The notes under the pieces were generated by a model, which had not been told where the DNA came from, searched no databases, and was given only the letters and a program-made list of their open reading frames with translations. This document shows, in pieces, positions 10,875-22,907 of a stretch of DNA of 54,274 nt. This DNA comes from an uncultured Christiangramia sp. GTDB taxonomy: Bacteria; Bacteroidota; Bacteroidia; Flavobacteriales; Flavobacteriaceae. The stretch covers positions 1 through 54,274 of the forward strand of contig NZ_CAJWRQ010000006.1 in the NCBI RefSeq assembly GCF_913046405.1. Reading direction: 5' to 3'. Made by a program: the position numbers and the translations under genes. The stretch's first letter is position 1; each line of letters starts with the position of its first letter.

Positions 10875-12350
10875 TTAAACTTCAGACTTTAAACTTTGAA
10901 TGAAAACGAAACCAAATCCGGCGAAAAGCATAAGGTGGAAAATAATGAGTCCGAATTCCTGAAGTCGGAATGCGCTATAAATTGCAAAGCCAAAATAAAG
11001 AAACAGTACGCCTTCAATAATGATATTTCTTGAAAACTTGCCCGATAGATATTTATTACCCTTCCATTTACCACCACTTTCTCCAATATTGAATTTTGGA
11101 GTTCTTATAAATTCTGAGCGTTTCCCGAGATGGCCTTCCAGAACAGCGAGTGAGTTATGAACTGAAAATCCCATCGCTATTGAAAAAAAGGTGAGAAACA
11201 TCCCTACAAACTTAAGAAAGGATCTGAGTCCTTTTCCATGTATTCTTGACCAGGCAACATAGTAACAAAGAAAAAAGATAAGCGTACTTAGAGCAAATAC
11301 TGCGACCAGATTAAAATACCAGTCGAAAGCCGGATTGGAATTCTTGATGTAAAGTACCGGCAAACTTAGCACCGCAAGAAACAAAACGATCAAAAACATA
11401 CTGGAGTTCAAAAGATGAAAGAACCCATGAAACTTGGTACTGAATGATGCCGATTTATCTCTTAGTAATTTTCCATAGTTCTTCCTGAAATTTTCGGCAG
11501 CACCTTTGTTCCATCGAAACTGCTGACTCCTTGCTGCACTAATCACCACGGGTAATTCGGCTGGAGTTTCTACATTTTCAAGGTATTTGAATTCCCATTT
11601 TTTCATCTGGGCCCTATAACTGAGATCAAGATCTTCTGTAAGTGTATCGCCACTCCAGTTCCCTGCATCGAGAATACAATCCTTTCGCCAGATTCCCGCT
11701 GTCCCGTTGAAATTAATAAAATTGCGACCAAAATTTCTCCCGGTTTGTTCCAGTATAAAATGAAAATCAAGCGCGAAAGCCTGTATCCTGGTTAGTAGCG
11801 AATAATCACGATTTAGATGTCCCCAACGGGTTTGCACCACACCAATCCTGGAATTTTTAAAATAGGGCAATGTTTGTTTTAGCCAATTTCTGCCAGGTAC
11901 GAAATCTGAATCAAATACCGCGATATACTCTCCACGAGCGATTTTCAGACCTTCTTTCAAAGCTCCGGCCTTAAATCCAGTGCGTGTTTGCCTGCAGATA
12001 TGCTGTATATCCAATCCTTGCTGGCTAAGACTTTTAATAAGTTTAGAAGTGATGTTTACAGAATCATCTGTAGAATCATCCAGGACCTGGATTTCGAGTT
12101 TTTCCCTTGGATATTCTATTCTGGCAATATTTTTCAGTAACCGTTCAACTACGTATTCTTCGTTATAGAGCGGCAATTGTATGGTAACAATGGGGTAGTC
12201 ATCATTCGCTTCGAAGTTGAATTTTTCTGAAGTGTCACTAGACTTTATAGCTTTGAAGTAATTTAGCAAAAGGTGTAGCTGCGAGAGGCTGTAGATGAAA
12301 ATAACCAGCAACGCAAACGTGTATAGTATGATCACCAGAAGGTCTATCAT
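10875..12350 (-). CDS. Processive GT2 of the CslA / beta-mannan-synthase type
   Basis: This 491-residue GT2 has an N-terminal membrane segment (1-30), a cytoplasmic GT-A domain and four or more C-terminal membrane helices from about 310. The processive signature is complete: D91-D92 in VLDDSTD, D147-S-D149 in FDSDF, TED (238-240) and QQFRW (276-280). Segments such as LPLYNE, RIEYPREKLEIQVLDDSTD and FNGTAGIWR resemble plant CslA glucomannan synthases and ceramide glucosyltransferase-like bacterial enzymes. The start overlaps the upstream DPM1-like gene by 4 bp. A beta-linked hexose polymer is likely; mannose is inferred from similarity and the nearby GH113-like enzyme. Confidence 0.82.
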   Translation of the reverse strand: MIDLLVIILYTFALLVIFIYSLSQLHLLLNYFKAIKSSDTSEKFNFEANDDYPIVTIQLPLYNEEYVVERLLKNIARIEYPREKLEIQVLDDSTDDSVNITSKLIKSLSQQGLDIQHICRQTRTGFKAGALKEGLKIARGEYIAVFDSDFVPGRNWLKQTLPYFKNSRIGVVQTRWGHLNRDYSLLTRIQAFALDFHFILEQTGRNFGRNFINFNGTAGIWRKDCILDAGNWSGDTLTEDLDLSYRAQMKKWEFKYLENVETPAELPVVISAARSQQFRWNKGAAENFRKNYGKLLRDKSASFSTKFHGFFHLLNSSMFLIVLFLAVLSLPVLYIKNSNPAFDWYFNLVAVFALSTLIFFLCYYVAWSRIHGKGLRSFLKFVGMFLTFFSIAMGFSVHNSLAVLEGHLGKRSEFIRTPKFNIGESGGKWKGNKYLSGKFSRNIIIEGVLFLYFGFAIYSAFRLQEFGLIIFHLMLFAGFGFVFIQSLKSEV

Positions 12351-13039
12351 TTAAAACTGTATTTGAAGATCCATCCTAATATTTTTACACCTGCAAAGAT
12401 AGCACCTTTAAGTGTTCCTGAAACTTTGGAAACCCCGATCCGATTTCGATAATGCACTGGGATCTCGGAATAATCTAAATTTTTCCGAAGTGCTTTTAAT
12501 TGCATTTCTACCGTCCAGCCATAGGTTTTATCCTGCATCTCCAGCTGAAGTAATTTCTCATATTTGATCGCTCGAAAAGGTCCAAGATCTGTAAACGTAG
12601 AATTGAAGAACAATTTCATCAAACTTGTAGCCAGCCAGTTTCCAAAGATCTGCGGAAAGGTCATCGAACCAGTTTCCCGCCATTCTTTTACCCTCGCTCC
12701 TACAACGAAATCTTTGTTATCATCAATGATCGGCTGAATGATCCTTACTAATTCTGAAGGATAATCTGAATAATCTCCATCCAGAAATACAATAATATCT
12801 GGTTTAGCCGACTGTTCAGAGATGTATTGCATTCCTCTTAAGCAGGCATAGCCATAGCCTTTTCTATTCTCCCGCAGCACAGTAGCACCTGCGGCGGCAG
12901 CATTTGCTTCAGTAGCATCTGTAGAATTGTTGCTAACCACGATCACTTCTTCCACGATATCAGGAATGTCCTTGATCACTAAACCTATTGAATCGGCTTC
13001 GTTAAAGGCTGGAATGATCACTTTAATGGAAGAATGCAT
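12347..13039 (-). CDS. DPM1-like family 2 glycosyltransferase
   Basis: This 230-residue soluble GT2 begins with VIIPAFNEADSIG and has the metal-binding FLDGDYSD segment, like dolichyl/polyprenyl-phosphate mannose or glucose synthases. It would make a polyprenyl-phosphate sugar, which could feed the GT-C enzyme two genes downstream. It lacks C-terminal membrane helices, as do short DPM1 forms. Its end overlaps the CslA-like gene by 4 bp (ATGA), a sign of coupled translation. Sugar specificity is unproven. Confidence 0.83.
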   Translation of the reverse strand: MHSSIKVIIPAFNEADSIGLVIKDIPDIVEEVIVVSNNSTDATEANAAAAGATVLRENRKGYGYACLRGMQYISEQSAKPDIIVFLDGDYSDYPSELVRIIQPIIDDNKDFVVGARVKEWRETGSMTFPQIFGNWLATSLMKLFFNSTFTDLGPFRAIKYEKLLQLEMQDKTYGWTVEMQLKALRKNLDYSEIPVHYRNRIGVSKVSGTLKGAIFAGVKILGWIFKYSFK

Positions 13040-13094: not shown

Positions 13095-14690
13095 TTATAA
13101 GCTTTTCTGCTTCAGAAGATCCAAAAGATCTACATTATCTCCCACAACTCCATCTTCTACCGTGATCCGGTTACTGGTAGATCCATTCTCCAGTTTAAGT
13201 ACACCTCTGGGACAAACCGCTGAGCAGATTCCGCAGCCAACACAACTGGATCGAACGATGTTCTCACCTTTTTGCGCGTATGCCCGTACATCGATCCCCA
13301 TTTCGCAATAGGTAGAACAGTTTCCACAGGAAATACACTGGCCACCATTGGTCGTAATTCTGAATTTTGAGAATAGACGTTGTTGCATTCCTAAAATTGC
13401 CGCCATTGGGCAACCAAATCTACACCATACGCGATTTCCGAAAATTGGATAAAAACCGGTACCAATGACTCCGCTAAATATCGACCCTATCAGAAAACCA
13501 TAAGCCTGGCGTAGGCTTTCTGCATTAAATAAGAATAAATTCTGTCCGCTGAAATAGTGAAAAGCTATTAATCCCAGGATGATCACGAGGTATCCAATTG
13601 CACCGTATCGTGCGTCTTTCTGTAATTCTTCTCTCTTATAATACCAGATCGCTGCAAACAGCAAGGTTAGAAATGTCCCAACACCAATCAGGAAAACATC
13701 GCGTGTAAGCCAGTATTTTGAAGAATCATAACCAAGGTAACTGTAGATGACAGCGGTAGTCATCAAAACCACAAAAACAAGCACGCTATGCACCACCCAT
13801 CGCTCAACTTTCCAGGCGAAAAGACTCTTATCTGAAAGTTGGCGGTATGGATCACCTGCAGTTTCAGCGAGACCTCCACAACCACATACCCAGCTGCAGT
13901 ACCATCTTTTTCCGTATTTGTAAGTCAGAATCGGGGTGATCACAAAAATTGAAACCACACCGAAAATTAGCAAAGCCAGCCCTATATTACCTGAAGAAAG
14001 AAAACCATCTACCCTGTATTGTTCGAAATTATAATAATTAAGCGGCCAGATATTCTTAAGATCATAATACGGCAGGTTCATCCCATCGTCATTAAGCCTG
14101 GACATAAATTCAGGAATAAGAAATGCGAATGCCAGCTGAAAGAACATCACACTAAAAGTTCTTAGTTTCTCATAGCGGTTATGCCGGTACTTCCAAAGAA
14201 ATTTCACTCCAAAAGCCAGAATGGCGATGGTATATAGAGTTCCATACACGAACCACTGGCTCGCCGGATTGCCACTTAGCAAATAACTTAGAGGATCGAA
14301 AAGAGCGATCAATCCAACGTTACCCCCTTCTGCCCGTAAACCAAGATATTGGGGATAAAAATAAAGCAATATATAGAATCCGGTCAATCCAACACCGGTA
14401 AGATAAGCAACGTACCCGCGGCTGGTCATACTCTTAAACCATACTCCATCGTTCTTAATGCCTGCATGCGTTCCCGAATAGGTAGCCTGAGCGAACCACA
14501 CAATTCCTGCAGTGATCGATCCTAGAGCAATACTTAGCCAAAGAACCTTGTTAGGGAAATTTAGATTTAAAGCAGCGAGACAAAGAATGATGAGTCCAGA
14601 CATCCCCAGCAAAGTCGATAATTTCTGTCCTGTATTGAGAGATGCTGCAGCTTCGCCGGTTACAGACATATTTTGTTCAATTCTACTCAT
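13095..14690 (-). CDS. NapH/CcoG-like polytopic membrane 4Fe-4S protein
   Basis: This 531-residue protein has about 10 membrane helices, two paired-cysteine membrane motifs typical of NapH/NosR-like proteins (CSWVCGCGG and CRFGCPMA), and a C-terminal dicluster ferredoxin domain with CISCGNCSTYC and CVGCGICSAVCPRG. It should pass electrons between a reductase and the membrane or periplasm. Its start shares one base with the stop of the FAD reductase gene (TAATG), so the two are translationally coupled and likely form a reductase pair. The acceptor is unknown. It is separated by 55 bp from the glycosyltransferase run. Confidence 0.85.
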   Translation of the reverse strand: MSRIEQNMSVTGEAAASLNTGQKLSTLLGMSGLIILCLAALNLNFPNKVLWLSIALGSITAGIVWFAQATYSGTHAGIKNDGVWFKSMTSRGYVAYLTGVGLTGFYILLYFYPQYLGLRAEGGNVGLIALFDPLSYLLSGNPASQWFVYGTLYTIAILAFGVKFLWKYRHNRYEKLRTFSVMFFQLAFAFLIPEFMSRLNDDGMNLPYYDLKNIWPLNYYNFEQYRVDGFLSSGNIGLALLIFGVVSIFVITPILTYKYGKRWYCSWVCGCGGLAETAGDPYRQLSDKSLFAWKVERWVVHSVLVFVVLMTTAVIYSYLGYDSSKYWLTRDVFLIGVGTFLTLLFAAIWYYKREELQKDARYGAIGYLVIILGLIAFHYFSGQNLFLFNAESLRQAYGFLIGSIFSGVIGTGFYPIFGNRVWCRFGCPMAAILGMQQRLFSKFRITTNGGQCISCGNCSTYCEMGIDVRAYAQKGENIVRSSCVGCGICSAVCPRGVLKLENGSTSNRITVEDGVVGDNVDLLDLLKQKSL

Positions 14691-15976
14691 TAGGTGCTTT
14701 GTAAATTGTTTGTAAAACTTTTAAAGATCTCAGCCTCGTGATGCTCATAAAATTCGGGATCAAAATTGGCTGCTTTGAGGTTTGATAAAACGTGGTTTAT
14801 CGTCTTTCCTTCATTCAGCCATTTATCGAATACCTCCTGTCGCATTCGTATTCCGAAGGTATTGATGCCCTTGAATTTTCCTGTTTCAGTATCAAAAGCG
14901 ATCGTAATCGCCTTTTCTCCACTTTCGTGCTGCCAGTGAAAATGCTGCTCATTTACACCAGGCTTATTAAACACCCAGCCATATGTTTGATATTCTATAT
15001 CGAAGAATTTAGCAGAATTAAACCAGTTACCTGGTTGGTAAGGAGTTCGGTTTCCATTAATCGTTCTGGCTACAGTTTCACCCATGATTCTGCCAGTGTA
15101 CCATACTGCTTCCACCGGTTTTCGTTCTCCTATGGCTTTTCTTTGTTGTGCACAATCACCAATCGCGTAAACATCTGGAATACTGGTTTCGAGAAATTCG
15201 TTCACGAGGATGCCTTTTTCGGTTTCAATTTCAAGGTTCTCAAGAAAGTTGATATTAGGTTTTACACCCGCGCAGAGACCAACAAATTCGCAAGTGATCT
15301 CTTCTCCAGATTTGGTTCTAATACCACGAACGTTACCCTGTTCATCTCCAAGAATCTCCTCAAGTTCTGTTTCGTGACGAAGGTCTATTCCATGCGCCAG
15401 GATATGCTCTGATATCATCTTTGCATCCTGTGGTGGCAATACGCCGCTCCAAAAGCCTTTTTCTCTCACCAGTAAAGTCACCGGAATCTTGCGTGTATGC
15501 AGCATTTCTGCCAGTTCCACGCCAATGAGTCCGCCACCAATGACAACCGCCTGCTTGATATTGGAGGTTCTTTCTTCCAGTTTTTCCAGGTCTTGTTTGG
15601 TGACCATTCCCTGCACGCCATTGAGATTTTCTCCGGGCCAGCCAAAGCGATTTGGTAAGGAACCGGTAGCCAGAATAAGCTTGTCGTAGTGCAATGTTTC
15701 TTCGGAAGAAAAACTAAGTTCTTTGTGTTGAAAATCTATGTGATCAACCCAGGCATTCTTAAGTTCTATTCGATTCTTTTCCCAGAACCAGTCTTCATAA
15801 GGCTTTAGATGGCCCCATTTCATATGTCCCATATAGACATACATTAAAGCGGTACGTGAGAAAAAATAGTCAGATTCCCCGGAAATTACGGTGATCTTGC
15901 AGTCTGAAGCTTTTCTAATATGCCGGGCAGCAGTGATACCAGCAATTCCATTTCCAATGATAACGATATGCTCCAT
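14690..15976 (-). CDS. NAD(P)H/FAD-dependent oxidoreductase (NirB/rubredoxin-reductase-like)
   Basis: This 428-residue flavoprotein has an N-terminal FAD motif IIGNGIAGITAA, a second NAD(P)-binding motif VVIGGGLIGVELAEML near residue 150, and the C-terminal FAD motif VYAIGDCAQ. It lacks an obvious redox-active cysteine pair, so it resembles the reductase module of NirB or rubredoxin/ferredoxin reductases. Its stop overlaps the start of the membrane Fe-S protein by one base, making an electron-transfer partnership likely. It is divergent from the GH113-like gene with a 95-bp gap. Confidence 0.87.
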   Translation of the reverse strand: MEHIVIIGNGIAGITAARHIRKASDCKITVISGESDYFFSRTALMYVYMGHMKWGHLKPYEDWFWEKNRIELKNAWVDHIDFQHKELSFSSEETLHYDKLILATGSLPNRFGWPGENLNGVQGMVTKQDLEKLEERTSNIKQAVVIGGGLIGVELAEMLHTRKIPVTLLVREKGFWSGVLPPQDAKMISEHILAHGIDLRHETELEEILGDEQGNVRGIRTKSGEEITCEFVGLCAGVKPNINFLENLEIETEKGILVNEFLETSIPDVYAIGDCAQQRKAIGERKPVEAVWYTGRIMGETVARTINGNRTPYQPGNWFNSAKFFDIEYQTYGWVFNKPGVNEQHFHWQHESGEKAITIAFDTETGKFKGINTFGIRMRQEVFDKWLNEGKTINHVLSNLKAANFDPEFYEHHEAEIFKSFTNNLQST

Positions 15977-16071: not shown

Positions 16072-17100
16072 ATGCAGTGGAAATCGGCACTCCTCATTAT
16101 TCAGATCTTTCTAATGGTCGGTTTACTAACAGCGTCCTGTCAAACAAATCAACGATCACCTAAAATGAATGGGGTTAGCCTGGTTGCTTCCCGGGATTCT
16201 ATTCTCGATACTGAAATAAACTATGTTGCTGAAACTGAAGCCAATTACATTGCCCTGATGCCCTTTGGTTTTCTACCAGGCAGCCAGGAACCTCAGCTAA
16301 AATTTAACATTAATCGGCAGTGGTTTGGTGAACGCAAGGAAGGTATTGAGCATACTGTTTCAAAATTAAGAGAGCGAAATCTAAAGATCATGGTAAAGCC
16401 GCAGATATGGCTTCGGAATGGAACATTCACGGGGGATCTTAAATTTGAAACTGAAGAAGACTGGAAGCAATTCGAAGATTCTTATGCTGAATTTATTCTT
16501 TTATATGCTGAAATTTCAGAAGAACTAGATGTGGAGTTATTCTGTATTGGAACCGAACTTTTCAATTTTGTAAGCAACAGACTCGACTTCTGGAAAAACC
16601 TGATTTCCGAAGTGAGAAAAATATACAGCGGTGAAATAACTTATGCTGAAAACTGGGATAAATTTGATCAAACTACGATATGGGATGAACTGGATTATAT
16701 TGGCGTGGACGCTTACTTTCCTCTAAGTGACGAAGCTTCTCCCGATATTGATCAAATAAAAGAAGGCTGGGAACCTCATCTTAATTCACTGGAATCTGTC
16801 TCTGATAAATTTGAGAAGAAGATAATTTTTACAGAATTTGGATATAGAAGTATTGACCATGCCTTGAAAACGCCATGGAATTCTGAACGGGAACATCCCG
16901 GTCTCAATTTTAATTTACAGGCAAATGCTTATAAAGTTCTTTTTGAACAGGTTTGGTCTAAAGAGTGGTTTGCGGGTGGTTTTCTTTGGAAATGGCATCA
17001 ACGAACCAATAGCGGCGGACTCGAAAACTCCAGATTTACTCCGCAGAATAAACCAGCAGAAATAGAGCTGAAAAGCTTTTACGGCAGCTTCAGGAATTAA
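16072..17100 (+). CDS. GH113-like glycoside hydrolase lipoprotein
   Basis: This 342-residue protein starts with a signal sequence ending in LLTASC (C23), so it should be a surface or periplasmic lipoprotein. The (beta/alpha)8 glycosidase features are clear: GTELF with the likely acid/base E162 and FTEFGYRS with the likely nucleophile E255, plus conserved ALMPFGF and MVKPQIW strands. This pattern fits GH113 endo-beta-mannanases. It is divergent from the reductase/glycosyltransferase genes and overlaps the convergent TIGR04283 gene by 11 bp. Mannan cleavage is a family-based guess; it may trim the polymer made by the neighbouring GT2. Confidence 0.8.
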   Translation: MQWKSALLIIQIFLMVGLLTASCQTNQRSPKMNGVSLVASRDSILDTEINYVAETEANYIALMPFGFLPGSQEPQLKFNINRQWFGERKEGIEHTVSKLRERNLKIMVKPQIWLRNGTFTGDLKFETEEDWKQFEDSYAEFILLYAEISEELDVELFCIGTELFNFVSNRLDFWKNLISEVRKIYSGEITYAENWDKFDQTTIWDELDYIGVDAYFPLSDEASPDIDQIKEGWEPHLNSLESVSDKFEKKIIFTEFGYRSIDHALKTPWNSEREHPGLNFNLQANAYKVLFEQVWSKEWFAGGFLWKWHQRTNSGGLENSRFTPQNKPAEIELKSFYGSFRN

Positions 17101-17776
17101 TCCGTTTGCAATAATGAGAACGCAGATCTTCAGCACTAGCACCAAATCTTCTTTTCCAGTAGATCTCAAGAAATAACTTTTGCGTTTTCCAGACACCCAT
17201 ACGCTCGTATAAACGCGCAGAAGTTGTAAGCCATTTCCTGATCACTGTGAATGATCCATGCTCATATAGCCGTTTTATAAATTCGTTGTCTTCGTAAACC
17301 GTATAACTTTCATCAAAACCGCTAAGGAAATGAAATAGATCTTTGGTTACGAACAAAGATTGATCTCCTCCTCTACAGGATAGATGATTAAATTTTGTGA
17401 ATTGTCCCATTAAATTCAACCACCAGTGATCCTTGTCAAAGCGCATTTGAAAACACCCGCAATCATTGCCTTTTCTGACCACCTCCTTGATTAAAATATC
17501 AAAATTTTCCGGTGGATAACTATCGGCATGCAGGAAATACAGCAGTTCACCTTTTGCTTTTTTTGCGCCATAATTCATTTGAACTGCCCGGCCTTTTCCA
17601 GATAGATAATAGGTAACCTTTGGGTGTTCGATGGCAAGACGGGAAGTTTCATCTGTACTTCCACCATCCACAACAAGAATTTCCCGTATATAAGTAGAAG
17701 AAGCAGTTTCCAGGTATTTTAGCAAAGCCGGAAGCTGCTTCTCTTCATTATGGACCGGGATAATGATACTTATCAC
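17090..17776 (-). CDS. TIGR04283-type arsenosugar-associated glycosyltransferase
   Basis: This 228-residue GT2 starts with ISIIIPVHNEEKQLPALL and has EILVVDGGSTDET, GKGRAVQMNYGAKKAKGELL and FLHADSYPP, the TIGR04283 pattern (called transferase 2, rSAM-associated, later arsenosugar biosynthesis glycosyltransferase). It is the last gene of the eight-gene operon, 5 bp after the DUF547 gene. It could join the dimethylarsinoyl-ribose to an aglycone or sugar, but the acceptor is unknown. The 3' end overlaps the convergent GH113-like gene. Confidence 0.88.
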   Translation of the reverse strand: MISIIIPVHNEEKQLPALLKYLETASSTYIREILVVDGGSTDETSRLAIEHPKVTYYLSGKGRAVQMNYGAKKAKGELLYFLHADSYPPENFDILIKEVVRKGNDCGCFQMRFDKDHWWLNLMGQFTKFNHLSCRGGDQSLFVTKDLFHFLSGFDESYTVYEDNEFIKRLYEHGSFTVIRKWLTTSARLYERMGVWKTQKLFLEIYWKRRFGASAEDLRSHYCKRINS

Positions 17777-17781
17777 AGAAC

Positions 17782-18570
17782 TTATTTTGCTTCGTTCAGG
17801 TTCCAGTCGTAGTTCTTGTAGTCTACCTGGGCATTCGAATTGATCTTTACTTCTGAATATTGATTGATGTATTCGATCAAAGATCCATTTTCAGTAAAAT
17901 CATTCTTGTACCAATCAAAAATCGATGAAAGCTTTAGTTGCGAAGCTGAAATTTCATTCTTATCTGAATTGATAAATTCATTTGTAGCCTTTTCCAGTTG
18001 TTTTTCGATATTCTCGCTGGTATAAGCTTCATTAATAAGTTTTGGACAGCTTATGGACGCGCAATTGATCGCAAAGTGAATCCTTGGCTCATCCATTTTT
18101 CGTAACAGACTATTTTCAATGGCACCAAGTGAAATTTCCTTCTTTCCGATTTTGACGAACTCTTTGGTCCATGCTCCGGAAATATCCTTAATACTCTTCG
18201 TTGGATAATTCCGAAGAATAAGATCCACCGTGTACGCATTATAGAGGTTGATATAATATGCCAGAAGTTGATCACGATTCCAGGTATCATCTGGCTGCAT
18301 GGAAGAAAGCATCTTTAAATATTTATCAAGTGCTGGCCGGTCTTTCTGAAAACCTTTATAATCTACCATTCCGTCGTCATCCACATGCTTTTTCAATAGT
18401 TGATCCCAGCCAGAATGATCTACTTTGTCCTCTGCAGCTGCAGAAGTATTTGCAGAATCTGGTGTAGGCAATCCTTTACTGTTGAAGCCTGCGCTCGAAA
18501 TAAGGTTACAGGACTGACAAATAAATGCCCCTGAGACCAGGATTAGAAAACTTAAAAATACCTTCTTCAT
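17782..18570 (-). CDS. DUF547 lipoprotein of the arsenosugar operon
   Basis: This 262-residue protein has a signal peptide and lipobox (ICQSC) and the DUF547 core: LAYYINLYNAYTVDLIL followed by RIHFAINCASISCPKL. DUF547 proteins have a conserved His and Cys in the latter block, which may be catalytic, but no function is established that I know of. The gene lies 16 bp after the ArsM gene and 5 bp before TIGR04283, so it is part of the operon and would act outside the cytoplasm. A role in arsenosugar or arsenolipid maturation or export is inference. Confidence 0.85.
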   Translation of the reverse strand: MKKVFLSFLILVSGAFICQSCNLISSAGFNSKGLPTPDSANTSAAAEDKVDHSGWDQLLKKHVDDDGMVDYKGFQKDRPALDKYLKMLSSMQPDDTWNRDQLLAYYINLYNAYTVDLILRNYPTKSIKDISGAWTKEFVKIGKKEISLGAIENSLLRKMDEPRIHFAINCASISCPKLINEAYTSENIEKQLEKATNEFINSDKNEISASQLKLSSIFDWYKNDFTENGSLIEYINQYSEVKINSNAQVDYKNYDWNLNEAK

Positions 18571-18586
18571 AATCTTATTTTTTTAA

Positions 18587-19555
18587 TTAGCAACATCCAC
18601 CACCATCGTAATGCCAGGTGGACTCACTAATGTAAATATCATCTCTTCCAAGATCTGCCAATGCACCTGCAGTTTTATCACAAATTGCAATTGGCTGATT
18701 CTTCAATAAAATATGTCCTTTTTTATCATCAAAATGATCTTCATCTCCATAATAGATCGCAGCTTTTCCAGTAAAGATACACGGCCCATCTTCTGGCATA
18801 GGATCTTTGATCGCCGCTACTTCAATAGATTCGATATAAATCAATTCATCTGTAGGATAGTTTTTGGGATCCAGAATTCTATAAGGCTTTCTGGCCCTGA
18901 TCTCGATAGTTCCGAAGCCGGCATCGGTCAATGCTTTCACATAATCCTTGATGCTTAAACTTCCGGAAAGACAAAGCGCTCTTAAGCGTTCATCATTTCT
19001 AAGTTCATCATTCATCTCCTGCTCACACGTAGGATCACTCATTACAAGTCTTCCATGCGGCTTTAGCACCCTGTACATTTCCTTTAAAGCCTGAGTAAGC
19101 TCTTCAGTTTTAAAAATATTGAAAAGACAGTTCTGTGCGGCTACATCTATAGAGTTATCTTCAACCGGTAATGCCGTAGCATCTCCTTTTCTAAGATCTA
19201 CAAATTCAGATTTAAACCATGGGTTCTGGGCTTCTGCCTCCACAAAGTTCTTGCGGGACGCTTCCAGCATTTCATCTACCACATCTACTCCAACCACACC
19301 CGATTTCATTCGGGAAAAATAAGCGAACTGTAAAAGTTCCATTCCGCCACCTACACCCACATAAAGTGTACGCGGATTATTAGTCAGATCCCGGGCATGC
19401 ACGGTAGAACCACAACCATAATTCATCTCCTGCATGATCTTCGGAATCTTTAATCCCGGAAGTTCCCAGATCGGGTTCGTAGTGCAGCAAAGTCCCACAT
19501 CTGGTGTAAGTGCTGCTTCACGGTAAACGTCTTTAGTAATCTCTAAATAACTCAT
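18587..19555 (-). CDS. arsM: ArsM-type arsenite S-adenosylmethyltransferase (arsenosugar type)
   Basis: This 322-residue class I methyltransferase has the SAM loop LYVGVGGGMELLQ (64-76) and acidic VGVDVVDEML. The cysteines expected for As(III) binding are present: C48 in YGCGST, C143 in AQNCLFN and C195 in RALCLSG, equivalent to the three-cysteine set of ArsM enzymes. Extra cysteines are C23-C24 near the N-terminus and a terminal GGGCC (C321-C322). It would methylate arsenite stepwise to dimethylarsenic. It abuts the purine nucleoside phosphorylase gene with no gap. The cysteine equivalence is from memory of the family, not from an alignment. Confidence 0.87.
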   Translation of the reverse strand: MSYLEITKDVYREAALTPDVGLCCTTNPIWELPGLKIPKIMQEMNYGCGSTVHARDLTNNPRTLYVGVGGGMELLQFAYFSRMKSGVVGVDVVDEMLEASRKNFVEAEAQNPWFKSEFVDLRKGDATALPVEDNSIDVAAQNCLFNIFKTEELTQALKEMYRVLKPHGRLVMSDPTCEQEMNDELRNDERLRALCLSGSLSIKDYVKALTDAGFGTIEIRARKPYRILDPKNYPTDELIYIESIEVAAIKDPMPEDGPCIFTGKAAIYYGDEDHFDDKKGHILLKNQPIAICDKTAGALADLGRDDIYISESTWHYDGGGCC

Positions 19556-20368
19556 TTATAATCTCTTAAGTAATTCTTTAAATAGTTTAACCATATCAGG
19601 TTCGGCTTTAGCAGCCATTGCCAGAATTTCCTGAATATCTACTTTTTCAAGATTATCCGGATCCCCTTTGTCTGTAATCACAGAAATTGCTGAAACCGGA
19701 ATCCCCAAGTGGTTGGCAACGATCACTTCAGGCACTGTACTCATTCCAACAGCATCTGCACCGATCATCTTTAAATATCTATATTCAGCTCTGGTTTCCA
19801 GTTGAGGCCCCAATACCGAAGCATAAACTCCCTTATGCAAAGTAATATTAAGCTCTTTTGCGGTATGTTCAAAGTGCTCATTCATGGATTTATCATAAGG
19901 TTCGCTCATGTCCACAAAACGTTCTCCCAAATGTTCAACGCCGTGAAAAGCCAGTGGCGAACCACCCTGAAGATTAATATGGTCATCGATAAGCATCAAC
20001 TCGCCTTTACCGTAATCCAGATTAATTGCTCCGGAAGCATTGGAAACCAGCAAACGCTTCATCCCTAAACGCTTCATTACTCTTACCGGGAATGTAACAT
20101 CAAAAAGGCTGTAACCTTCATACAGGTGGAATCTCCCCTGCATGATGACTACTTTCTTTCCTGCCAGGGTTCCAAAAATTAGTTTCCCCTTGTGAAATTC
20201 CACCGTGGCAGTTGGAAAATATGGGATATGATTATAACTGGCGGTTACTTCAATTTCTACATCGTCCAGTAGTTTACCTAAACCTGTACCTAATATGATC
20301 CCAACCTCGGGCTCGCCGAATCCTTTGGATTTCAAATAATCTACCGATTCGTTTATTCTATCTGTCAT
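19556..20368 (-). CDS. Purine nucleoside phosphorylase (trimeric PNP/MTAP family)
   Basis: This 270-residue protein has the PNP signature: GIILGTGLG (phosphate loop), MQGRFHLYEGY, SNASGAIN, and GPQLETRAEYRYLKMIGAD followed by VGMSTVPEVIVA. The residue that sets base choice lies in SVITDKG: an aspartate where human PNP has asparagine (VITNK), a state linked with 6-aminopurines (adenine) in the MTAP branch. The gene abuts arsM and overlaps the TIGR04282 gene by 11 bp, so it may remove adenine from the arsenical adenosine made by ArsS. A general purine salvage role is also possible, because Bacteroidota PNPs often carry this aspartate. Confidence 0.92.
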   Translation of the reverse strand: MTDRINESVDYLKSKGFGEPEVGIILGTGLGKLLDDVEIEVTASYNHIPYFPTATVEFHKGKLIFGTLAGKKVVIMQGRFHLYEGYSLFDVTFPVRVMKRLGMKRLLVSNASGAINLDYGKGELMLIDDHINLQGGSPLAFHGVEHLGERFVDMSEPYDKSMNEHFEHTAKELNITLHKGVYASVLGPQLETRAEYRYLKMIGADAVGMSTVPEVIVANHLGIPVSAISVITDKGDPDNLEKVDIQEILAMAAKAEPDMVKLFKELLKRL

Positions 20369-20972
20369 TATTTATCATTTTTTGAAAAGCCGGATGACCT
20401 TTGATATCCTCCAGCGTATCTATATCGTTTTTTAGTGGCAGCGCTTTATAAGTTCCATCCTGCATGTCCTGAAGACTTTGCTCAAATACGCTCGAAGTAC
20501 TCCATGCTTTATTGATGAATAAAGCTGAATTTAATGATTTCATACCTAAAAGGTAATATCCACCATCTTCAGCAGGTCCGATAACATAATCGTGAGCTTC
20601 AAGTTCTTCAAAAGCATTTTCAAGATCTGTTGTATTAAGATCGTAAAGATCACTTCCAATAATCAAAATTTTCTTGTAGCCTTCGTCGAATCCAGCTTTG
20701 AAAGCAGCTTCCATTTTCTCTCCCAGATCTCCTTCTACCTGCAATCTCTTCTGAAAACCTCCATCTTTCCAGATATCGTCTTCAGCGATATTCCAGGCGT
20801 AATAAACCTGTTTGTTTACGTTGAGTTTACCGGTTATATCTTTCGTATGCTTCAGCAGAAATTTATAAATTTCAAGAGCTTTCTTATCTCCTACTCCTTT
20901 GGCTAGCCTGGTTTTTACCTTTCCAAGAACAGGATTTTTTGTAAATATGATTAGCAGATTTTCTTTTGACAC
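20358..20972 (-). CDS. TIGR04282-type arsenosugar-associated transferase (DUF2064)
   Basis: This 204-residue GT-A-like protein shows LLIIFTKNPVLGKVKTRLA at the N-terminus, typical of DUF2064/TIGR04282 (transferase 1, rSAM-associated). The central IIGSDLYDL replaces the usual GSDCP-type metal segment, and GPAEDGGYYLLG is conserved. It resembles nucleotidyltransferases as well as glycosyltransferases, so it could activate a sugar as a nucleotide for TIGR04283. It overlaps PNP by 11 bp and abuts the rhodanese gene directly, indicating one transcript. Confidence 0.87.
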   Translation of the reverse strand: MSKENLLIIFTKNPVLGKVKTRLAKGVGDKKALEIYKFLLKHTKDITGKLNVNKQVYYAWNIAEDDIWKDGGFQKRLQVEGDLGEKMEAAFKAGFDEGYKKILIIGSDLYDLNTTDLENAFEELEAHDYVIGPAEDGGYYLLGMKSLNSALFINKAWSTSSVFEQSLQDMQDGTYKALPLKNDIDTLEDIKGHPAFQKMINNDR

Positions 20973-21470
20973 CTAATAAATTTTTTCTCCGTTCTTAAGA
21001 TATTTCGACCAGTGTTTTGAAAAAGTATGAACCTTTTCGGTTTCCTTGCCTTTATTGTCATAAACAGGATAGCCGGTATTTTTCCATTCAAAAATTCCTC
21101 CGTACAGATTTTTTACATTTCCAAAACCCAAATTCTGAACCTTGCGAGCAATTTTCTCTGATCTAATCCCTACGGAACAGTATACTACGATCTGTTTATC
21201 CCTGGAAATTGAGTCCAGAACAGTCAGATTAAGATTATCATATCCTATAAATTTTGAATCCTTAAGATGGCTGGTTTTATATTCGTTGCTTTCACGCGCA
21301 TCCAGAATGATCACCTCGTCATTTAACTGATCCATGCGCAGTTGCTCTACGGAAGTGTATGCAACATCACCAGAATTATACTTTTTCAATAGATCTTCCA
21401 GCGCATTCTGACTAAACCCGGAAGTTCCAATGAAAAAAATTAAGCTGAAAATGATTCCCTGTAATTTCAT
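20973..21470 (-). CDS. Exported rhodanese-like sulfurtransferase
   Basis: This 165-residue protein begins with a signal peptide (hydrophobic IIFSLIFFIGTSGFSQ) and has one rhodanese domain. The CH2A-like ILDARES motif and the active loop C98-S-V-G-I-R103 are visible. The loop is six residues, as in sulfurtransferases, not the seven-residue CX5R loop of Cdc25/Acr2 phosphatase or arsenate-reductase types. Location should be periplasmic. It sits 1 bp after arsS and abuts the TIGR04282 gene. A link to thio-arsenosugar formation or arsenic thiol handling is speculation. Confidence 0.87.
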   Translation of the reverse strand: MKLQGIIFSLIFFIGTSGFSQNALEDLLKKYNSGDVAYTSVEQLRMDQLNDEVIILDARESNEYKTSHLKDSKFIGYDNLNLTVLDSISRDKQIVVYCSVGIRSEKIARKVQNLGFGNVKNLYGGIFEWKNTGYPVYDNKGKETEKVHTFSKHWSKYLKNGEKIY

Positions 21471-21471
21471 A

Positions 21472-22527
21472 TTAAGCTACTGTTCCCTGGCAACTACTTC
21501 CTGCACCAGCAGTACAACCGTAGCAATGTTGTGAAATGATAATATTCCGATCATTCAATATATCCTCATTATATTCACTGATATGCTGAACTTTCGAATT
21601 TACTTTTAATTCGAGCATCTGATTAAAATCACAATCGTATAACCAGCCATCCCAACTAATAGAGATAGTATTGGTGCACATCACGTTTTCAACGGCTGCA
21701 GGATTATAAGCCTCTACCAGGGCATACATATAATCTTCATAATTTTCAGAAGCTATAAGGTATTCAAGGAATCGGCTAATGGGTAAATTTGTAATTGCGA
21801 ACAGACTGCCAAAATCGATATTAAAATCTTCTTTTAAAGCTTTTTTGAAGTCCTGCTCCATCGCCTGTTGATCTGTTGGTAAAAATGCACCTGAGGGATT
21901 ATAGACCAGATCCAGTTTTAGACCTGTGCCTTCCTGCGCATAACCTACAGCGTTCAGCATTTGCAGCGCCTTGATAGATTTATCAAAAACACCACTACCT
22001 CTTTGCTTATCGGTTTTTTCTCTTTTATAGAATGGCAATGAAGAAACCACGTGGACATTATGTTTCTTAAAGAATTCCGGTAGGTCGTGATACTTCTTGT
22101 TGGCGAGAATGATCGTTAGGTTTGATCTAACAATGAAATCCTGAATCCCTGCTTTCGCAGCTTCTTCCACAAACCATCTAAAATTCGGATTCATTTCAGG
22201 GGCACCACCAGTAAGGTCCAACGTATGCGCTCCGGTATTCTTGATAACTTCCAGACATTGTTTCATGGTTTCTACCGTCATGATCTCCTTACGATCGGGA
22301 CCAGCATCTACATGGCAATGAGAACAAACCTGATTACACATATAACCAAGATTAAGCTGTAAGATTTCGAGTTTTTTGGGTTTAAATGGCAGATTGTAAG
22401 TTTCTGCGATCTTATCCCGGAAATACGGGAGTTCGCCTTCTTCAAATATGCCTTTGCTTAAAAATTTTAACTGGTTCTTAGGGCTTGAAAGATCATCCTT
22501 ACGCGCCTTCAGGGATTTTGTGATCAT
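21472..22527 (-). CDS. arsS: Radical SAM protein ArsS (arsenosugar biosynthesis)
   Basis: This 351-residue protein has the radical SAM cluster motif C64-x3-C68-x2-C71 (MCNQVCSHC), the LDLTGGAPEMNP SAM-contact strand, and a Cys-rich C-terminal domain with YDCDFNQML and HCYGCTAGAGSSCQG, as in the ArsS/DUF3641 family. Family members are implicated in placing a 5'-deoxyadenosyl group on dimethylarsenic, giving the arsenosugar precursor. It is 44 bp after the AhpD-like gene and 1 bp before the rhodanese gene. The assignment is strong because of the accompanying ArsM, TIGR04282 and TIGR04283 genes. Confidence 0.92.
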   Translation of the reverse strand: MITKSLKARKDDLSSPKNQLKFLSKGIFEEGELPYFRDKIAETYNLPFKPKKLEILQLNLGYMCNQVCSHCHVDAGPDRKEIMTVETMKQCLEVIKNTGAHTLDLTGGAPEMNPNFRWFVEEAAKAGIQDFIVRSNLTIILANKKYHDLPEFFKKHNVHVVSSLPFYKREKTDKQRGSGVFDKSIKALQMLNAVGYAQEGTGLKLDLVYNPSGAFLPTDQQAMEQDFKKALKEDFNIDFGSLFAITNLPISRFLEYLIASENYEDYMYALVEAYNPAAVENVMCTNTISISWDGWLYDCDFNQMLELKVNSKVQHISEYNEDILNDRNIIISQHCYGCTAGAGSSCQGTVA

Positions 22528-22571
22528 ATGGTTGTTTCTACGTATGTTTAGTTCTTCATTTCAGAAAAAAC

Positions 22572-22907
22572 TTACATACTTAGCTTTTTGTATTTATTCA
22601 TCATTTGGACACCATGTACAAGTGTAGCTCCACTTTCAATAGCAGCACCAGCATGAACAGCTTCCATCATCTCTTCCTTGGTAATACCACGTTGTAATCC
22701 ATCCTTGGTATATGCATCGATACAATAAGGACATTTTACAACATGCGCTACCGCAAGGGCGATCAATGACTTTTCACGGGCAGAAAGCGCTCCTTCTTCG
22801 AACACTTTACCGTAGTAGTCAAAAAACTTATTTCCAAGCTCTTCGCTCCATTCAGTAATCTCTCCAAATTTTCTAAGGTCTGCAGGATCATAATAGTTTT
22901 TAGCCAT
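22572..22907 (-). CDS. Arsenosugar-associated AhpD-like (carboxymuconolactone decarboxylase family) protein
   Basis: This 111-residue all-helical protein has the AhpD redox motif CPYC in VKCPYCIDAYT and the following EEMMEAVHAGAAI helix. It matches the small peroxidase-like family found beside ArsS. It probably supplies reducing equivalents or removes peroxides for the arsenic intermediates; methylated As(V) has to be reduced at each cycle. It is the first of the tightly spaced genes, with 44 bp to arsS and 63 bp from the 58-residue membrane peptide upstream. Confidence 0.9.
   Translation of the reverse strand: MAKNYYDPADLRKFGEITEWSEELGNKFFDYYGKVFEEGALSAREKSLIALAVAHVVKCPYCIDAYTKDGLQRGITKEEMMEAVHAGAAIESGATLVHGVQMMNKYKKLSM

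Follow-up and report, generated by a model that had tools for sequence, protein, structure and literature searches.

The window analysed here is a stretch of 54,274 nucleotides of contig NZ_CAJWRQ010000006.1 (NCBI RefSeq assembly GCF_913046405.1) from an uncultured Christiangramia sp. of the Flavobacteriaceae, and the subject is a cluster of open reading frames (ORFs) at 17090-22907 whose products we relate to arsenosugar biosynthesis. Eight ORFs, all on the minus strand, follow each other in the order AhpD-like protein, ArsS, rhodanese-like protein, TIGR04282 protein, purine nucleoside phosphorylase (PNP), ArsM, DUF547 protein and TIGR04283 glycosyltransferase. They are separated by 44, 1, 0, -11, 0, 16 and 5 bases, which bears out the initial annotation in its description of eight co-directional genes with gaps of -11 to 44. 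Seven of the eight proteins score above the curated NCBIfam cut-offs (Table 1), among them the four for which a profile search had been proposed (TIGR04282, TIGR04283, ArsS and ArsM); the DUF547 protein has a Pfam match only. A scan for promoters and terminators stayed at chance level, with 19 and 5 found and 21.0 and 5.1 expected. Five of the eight proteins (ArsS, ArsM, TIGR04282, TIGR04283 and the AhpD protein) already bear arsenosugar names in NCBIfam, and the rhodanese is named by its neighbourhood. The cluster is catalogued and widespread, and what is new is the assignment of its later steps, which we infer. We put at about even chances the reading that the operon turns arsenite into an arsenosugar through ArsM, ArsS, PNP, TIGR04282 and TIGR04283.

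For the first two steps the functions of the families are known. ArsM would methylate As(III) to give dimethylarsenic, to which ArsS would attach the 5′-deoxyadenosyl group of S-adenosylmethionine, as is known for ArsS relatives. This activity of ArsS is cited in PMC12159101 and PMC8552651, and ArsM and ArsS are reported as the catalysts of the initial steps of arsenosugar synthesis in PMC8552651. The arsenosugar assignment previously made for these two proteins is supported by their families. The same two families, both above their cut-offs in the window, form the arsenosugar pathway of Synechocystis; the window differs in possessing additionally a PNP, a rhodanese and a DUF547 protein. An ArsM and a radical SAM enzyme acting on arsenic are also found together in the arsinothricin cluster arsQML (PMC8552651), but there the radical SAM step is the transfer of a 3-amino-3-carboxypropyl group (PMC12159101).

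The locus was compared with those of the best 80 of 590 confirmed ArsS relatives, several of which are bounded by contig ends; the closest named relative among those listed is Christiangramia portivictoriae, with an ArsS identity of 98%. Around ArsS in the 80 loci we found AhpD in 76, TIGR04282 or a paralogue in 75, PNP in 61, the rhodanese in 51, ArsM in 51, DUF547 in 39 and TIGR04283 in 32. Since the same genes recur near ArsS across these relatives, their grouping is not due to chance. Some of the loci end, or carry inserts, before PNP could appear. ArsM was not seen in 29, part of them ended early by the contig, and is missing from L004, L011, L067, L071 and L077 although its flanking genes are present on both sides. 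The expected cysteines are retained throughout: the radical SAM motif CxxxCxxC in 80 of 80 ArsS proteins, C59 and C62 in 76 of 76 AhpD proteins, C98 in 51 of 51 rhodaneses, and all ten cysteines of ArsM in the 47 copies (of 51) of at least 300 residues. AhpD lies immediately upstream of ArsS in 79 of the 80 loci, as a plain gene in 75, as a fusion to a phosphoesterase in three and with a small antisense ORF between in one (L054); in the remaining locus (L010) the contig begins just before ArsS. The fusions, to a calcineurin-like phosphoesterase, are L005:8541-9788, identified by Pfam, and L013:8661-9896 and L017:8743-9948, identified by similarity and length. AhpD likely acts as a thiol reductant, with either ArsS or the arsenical itself as its partner.

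The association is also seen at the level of genomes. We sampled 120 Flavobacteriaceae genomes, each from a different genus and the window's own among them; in 93, ArsS scores above its cut-off. TIGR04282 is present in 93 of these 93 genomes versus 6 of the 27 that lack ArsS, PNP in 93 (in G058 only partially matched, under the cut-off) versus 18, TIGR04283 in 81 versus 5, and the ArsM of model NF038099 in 73 versus none; Fisher p-values for this set overstate independence, because the genomes share ancestry. In none of the 93 ArsS-bearing genomes is TIGR04282 more than 2 kb away from PNP, and in the 80 loci TIGR04282 is immediately upstream of PNP in 49 of the 61 that have PNP, with a DM13 protein sorted by the type IX secretion system (T9SS) between them in ten and another arrangement in two. 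In a wider sample of 296 Bacteroidota genomes, TIGR04282 occurs in 119 of 121 with ArsS and 60 of 175 without.

In the third step, PNP would phosphorolyse 5′-dimethylarsinoyl-adenosine to adenine and 5-dimethylarsinoyl-ribose-1-phosphate. The PNP of the window scores 107 bits against the model of methylthioadenosine (MTA) phosphorylase (MTAP; TIGR01694, cut-off 275) and so is not an MTAP by score. The two proteins share a superfamily, an equivalent slot in proteobacterial clusters and a hydrophobic residue at position 245, whereas the window protein belongs to the PNP family. ArsS matches covering at least 85% of the query were found on plasmids of six organisms, three of which have an MTAP above the TIGR01694 cut-off near TIGR04283, TIGR04282 and ArsS: Acinetobacter portensis (315 bits), Burkholderia glumae (312 bits) and Cupriavidus sp. 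KK10 (276 bits). The B. glumae cluster is one of 47 Burkholderia records inspected, and its ArsS is about 6 kb off on the opposite strand. The presence in the PNP slot of MTAP, which acts on 5′-substituted adenosines, favours the view that the ArsS product is phosphorolysed; the earlier proposal that PNP removes the adenine is strengthened accordingly.

Position 245, which we take to correspond to His257 of human PNP and Val233 of human MTAP and to lie in the 5′ pocket, is Ile in the window. It aligns with His of the other PNP type and with Ala or Val of two MTAPs, so that at this presumed pocket position the window protein resembles MTAP in having a hydrophobic residue and not His. Ile or Val is found here in all 58 readable PNP copies of the 80-locus set (of 61, three being truncated at the position) and likewise in each of the 17 from genomes with ArsS elsewhere. 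In 20 further copies, one of which (L103) duplicates a copy of the 80-locus set, Ile or Val occurs in 12 and His, marking the other PNP type, in eight. Asp233 was also considered as an arsenosugar-specific switch towards adenosine, and was ruled out by its presence in every readable PNP examined.

An unlikely alternative is that PNP serves purine salvage only, recovering adenine or clearing 5′-deoxyadenosine, and that adenine removal and aglycone attachment are carried out by TIGR04283 alone or by other proteins. PNP is indeed solitary in several ArsS-less genomes, and several other lineages have no phosphorylase near ArsS. However, the window's own genome already encodes a DeoD-type PNP, as well as a uridine-phosphorylase-like protein; PNP stands beside TIGR04282 in all 93 ArsS-bearing Flavobacteriaceae genomes; MTAP takes its place in proteobacteria; and many fold relatives of TIGR04282 use phosphorylated substrates. 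No match to MTAP or to MTA nucleosidase (MTAN) was found in the own genome, which is 90% complete, and the operon PNP may therefore also handle MTA or 5′-deoxyadenosine.

Phosphorolysis by PNP would supply the substrate of TIGR04282, which in the fourth step would couple arsenoribose-1-phosphate with a nucleoside triphosphate (NTP) to form a nucleoside diphosphate (NDP)-arsenoribose. An AlphaFold2 model of TIGR04282 built from 37 sequences (pLDDT 93.9) gave as its top Foldseek match the uncharacterised protein 3cgx, followed by CofC, FbiD, 3-phosphoglycerate guanylyltransferase, IspD, glucose-1-phosphate cytidylyltransferase, KdsB, HddC and GlmU. No characterised glycosyltransferase is among the top 20 matches; the first glycosyltransferase stands at rank 21, and seven are among the 50 matches listed. 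A function as glycosyltransferase, which is the NCBI name of the family, is disfavoured by this search. The protein resembles the guanylyltransferases CofC and FbiD of the F420 pathway in fold and in sequence, and a TIGR04282 gene is labelled fbiD in PMC8801600; the family has also been used as a soil metagenome marker (PMC11237643). Unlike CofC, however, it matches the CofC models weakly (35 bits, under the TIGR03552 cut-off of 105) and its predicted substrate differs, so that it has the NTP-transferase fold but falls outside CofC proper. Residues K19, R21, L22, D107 and D135 are invariant across the 37 sequences and are consistent with an active site of the nucleotidyltransferase type. From the model, TIGR04282 is predicted to be a CofC-like nucleotidyltransferase making NDP-arsenoribose. 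It had been suggested to activate either a sugar or an aglycone; with a nucleotidyltransferase-like fold, the arsenoribose-1-phosphate made by PNP is the more likely substrate and the aglycone the less likely one.

The 80 loci hold 86 members of the TIGR04282 family, 22 of which are a divergent paralogue that usually adjoins ArsS (e.g. L046:11061-11744). Of 85 aligned family members, paralogues included, 64 retain the K and 65 the R, from which we surmise that most or all of the paralogues have lost the N-terminal K/R motif. A different architecture is seen in L135:6508-7974, a single ORF in which a TIGR04282 domain is followed by a glutamine-amidotransferase-like domain.

In the last step, TIGR04283 would move the arsenoribose onto a glycerol- or lipid-like acceptor. 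In other Bacteroidota families TIGR04283 and TIGR04282 are fused, in this order in L130 and L132 (the TIGR04283 part of the latter scoring 169 bits, under the cut-off of 182) and in the reverse order in L136 and, by profiles of our own, L131. Fusion in both orders supports the two proteins acting at consecutive steps, and together with the family assignment makes plausible the joining role proposed earlier for TIGR04283. As family properties, PNPs yield an alpha-1-phosphate and glycosyltransferases of family 2 invert. If both hold here, the product would be a beta-riboside and match the natural arsenosugars, which have the beta-ribofuranosyl form (PMC10456119).

Several observations weigh against this pathway. 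It had been described as self-contained, and as a rule this is not supported: the ArsM of model NF038099 is missing from 20 of the 93 ArsS-bearing Flavobacteriaceae genomes, of which only nine have an ArsM of the PRK11873 type above its cut-off of 263 bits (one with an internal stop), and in 17 of the 93 ArsS is separated from PNP by over 12 kb or is on a different contig. In 13 of these 17 separated PNP regions (L110-L126) ArsM adjoins PNP. TIGR04283 is missing from 12 of the 93. Neither PNP nor MTAP was found near ArsS on the plasmids of Thiodictyon, Hymenobacter and Pseudanabaena within the stretches read, or in any of the seven ArsS loci scanned from Bacteroidota other than flavobacteria, two of which are short contigs. 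Neither of the two PNP residues is specific to arsenic: Asp233, a possible determinant for 6-aminopurines, is common to all readable PNPs and hence not diagnostic, and six of the 12 further PNPs with Ile or Val at 245 stand alone in ArsS-less genomes, which indicates that the pocket did not arise for arsenic. Searches of open-access papers turned up no substrate test for the phosphorolysis, activation or transfer steps. What speaks most strongly against a role in arsenic chemistry alone is the occurrence of the late genes without ArsS. Rhodanese, TIGR04282, PNP and TIGR04283 are retained without ArsS and NF038099 ArsM in five Flavobacteriaceae genera (G001, G016, G034, G089 and G113), in three of them with DUF547, and this module is not tied to arsenic. 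Among ten ArsS-less TIGR04282 regions inspected in other families, TIGR04282-TIGR04283 pairs or rhodanese, TIGR04282 and PNP occur in L140, L144 and L145; the other seven showed no module partners, although in L147 and L148 the ORF scan missed TIGR04282 itself.

A rival reading has two modules, an arsenic part (AhpD-ArsS, with or without ArsM) and an older, general one (rhodanese-TIGR04282-PNP-DUF547-TIGR04283) that would glycosylate riboses modified at position 5, derived from 5′-deoxyadenosine or MTA, or dispose of them, and into which arsenic chemistry was plugged. We hold this to be possible, though less probable than a dedicated route to arsenosugars. Besides the ArsS-less modules, the presence of TIGR04282 in ArsS-less Bacteroidota (60 of 175), the lack of an MTAP or MTAN match in the own genome and the separation of ArsS from PNP in 17 genomes speak for it. 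Against it, 71 of the 73 genomes with NF038099 ArsM have TIGR04282 no more than 12 kb away from it, so that arsenic chemistry and the late module go together; few genomes have ArsS but not TIGR04282 (0 of 93 and 2 of 121); and in the proteobacterial clusters all parts are found together again. Furthermore, G089 encodes a PRK11873-like methyltransferase of 230 bits, just below the cut-off, and an ArsS-like match of 55 bits, partial and C-terminal, was found in G016; some of the five ArsS-less modules may therefore be remnants.

It is highly improbable that the cluster serves mainly the uptake and processing of algal organoarsenicals, with ArsS modifying imported dimethylarsenic, and not de novo synthesis. 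SusC and SusD are present in 12 of the 80 ArsS clusters (L005, L007, L013, L017, L021, L026, L028, L036, L037, L042, L057 and L058), and the symporter-like protein and phosphoesterase that accompany them are carried by 13. In addition, neither ArsM model is matched above its cut-off in 11 of the 93 ArsS-bearing genomes, which may use environmental dimethylarsenic. The cluster of the window, however, has ArsM and no SusCD. Outside the 80 loci, the ArsS cluster L129 likewise has a SusC/SusD pair, a symporter-like protein and a phosphoesterase.

The limits 17090-22907 are probably too narrow. The last operon gene overlaps by 11 bases a convergent gene for a GH113-type glycoside hydrolase (16072-17100), found in 19 of the 80 relatives, and past it lie three more genes on the strand of the operon (Table 1). 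The FAD/NAD(P) oxidoreductase occurs in 14 of the 80 loci, immediately after PNP in L004 and L011, and beside TIGR04282 in L133; the NapH-like protein occurs in 12 and the second family-2 glycosyltransferase in ten, the latter also in L130 and L132. Given their position past the hydrolase gene here and beside PNP in L004 and L011, the true unit may comprise eleven genes.

Table 1. Genes of the cluster and its possible further members, with supporting models, scores and curated cut-offs.
Product	Position	Strand	Basis	Score (bits)	Cut-off (bits)
AhpD-like CxxC protein	22572..22907	-	TIGR04169	200	120
ArsS radical SAM enzyme	21472..22527	-	TIGR04167	441	300
Rhodanese-like protein, Cys98, N-terminal signal-like stretch (by eye)	20973..21470	-	NF045521	197	145
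TIGR04282/DUF2064, predicted CofC-like nucleotidyltransferase	20358..20972	-	TIGR04282	207	134
Trimeric-type PNP, Asp233 and Ile245; predicted phosphorylase of 5′-modified adenosine	19556..20368	-	NF006054	343	218
ArsM arsenite methyltransferase	18587..19555	-	NF038099	570	400
DUF547 lipoprotein-like protein	17782..18570	-	Pfam match		
TIGR04283 family-2 glycosyltransferase, predicted arsenoribosyl transferase	17090..17776	-	TIGR04283	225	182
FAD/NAD(P) disulfide-oxidoreductase family protein, possible further member	14690..15976	-	family match; recurrence in relatives		
NapH-like membrane 4Fe-4S protein, possible further member	13095..14690	-	family match; recurrence in relatives		
Second family-2 glycosyltransferase, possible further member	12347..13039	-	family match; recurrence in relatives		

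The DUF547 protein gave a confident model (pLDDT 90.2), and none of its 19 matches to folds of the Protein Data Bank (PDB) reaches an E-value of 0.001 or below. It recurs beyond the Bacteroidota, in proteobacterial arsenosugar clusters. Other radical SAM proteins stand next to DUF547 in proteobacterial clusters, namely L150:10754-12226 (TrsS-like), L109:14063-15460 and L108:7511-9834. Two further neighbours occur in both phyla: a fatty-acid-hydroxylase/sterol-desaturase protein (20 of the 80 flavobacterial loci, Acinetobacter and Thiodictyon) and a PHO4-type phosphate transporter (eight of the 80, Acinetobacter and Cupriavidus). Speculatively, their recurrence hints at a lipid-linked product and at the handling of arsenate.

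Arsenosugars are the main organic arsenic of seaweeds, and flavobacteria are abundant in the sea. To our knowledge, the loss of adenine and the attachment of the aglycone have been unsolved for decades, and among the open-access papers listed in literature searches none was seen to deal with PNP, MTAP, TIGR04282 or TIGR04283 in arsenosugar synthesis. That the cluster is the missing second half of this biosynthesis, present in most Flavobacteriaceae genera and consisting of phosphorolysis by independently recruited PNP or MTAP, CofC-like activation to an NDP-arsenoribose not reported so far and a transfer step carried out by an inverting glycosyltransferase, is a tentative proposal to which we give a little less than even odds. 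The comparison proposes a specific enzyme for each late step, and NDP-arsenoribose as an intermediate that can be searched for; it suggests flavobacteria as potential makers of arsenosugars.

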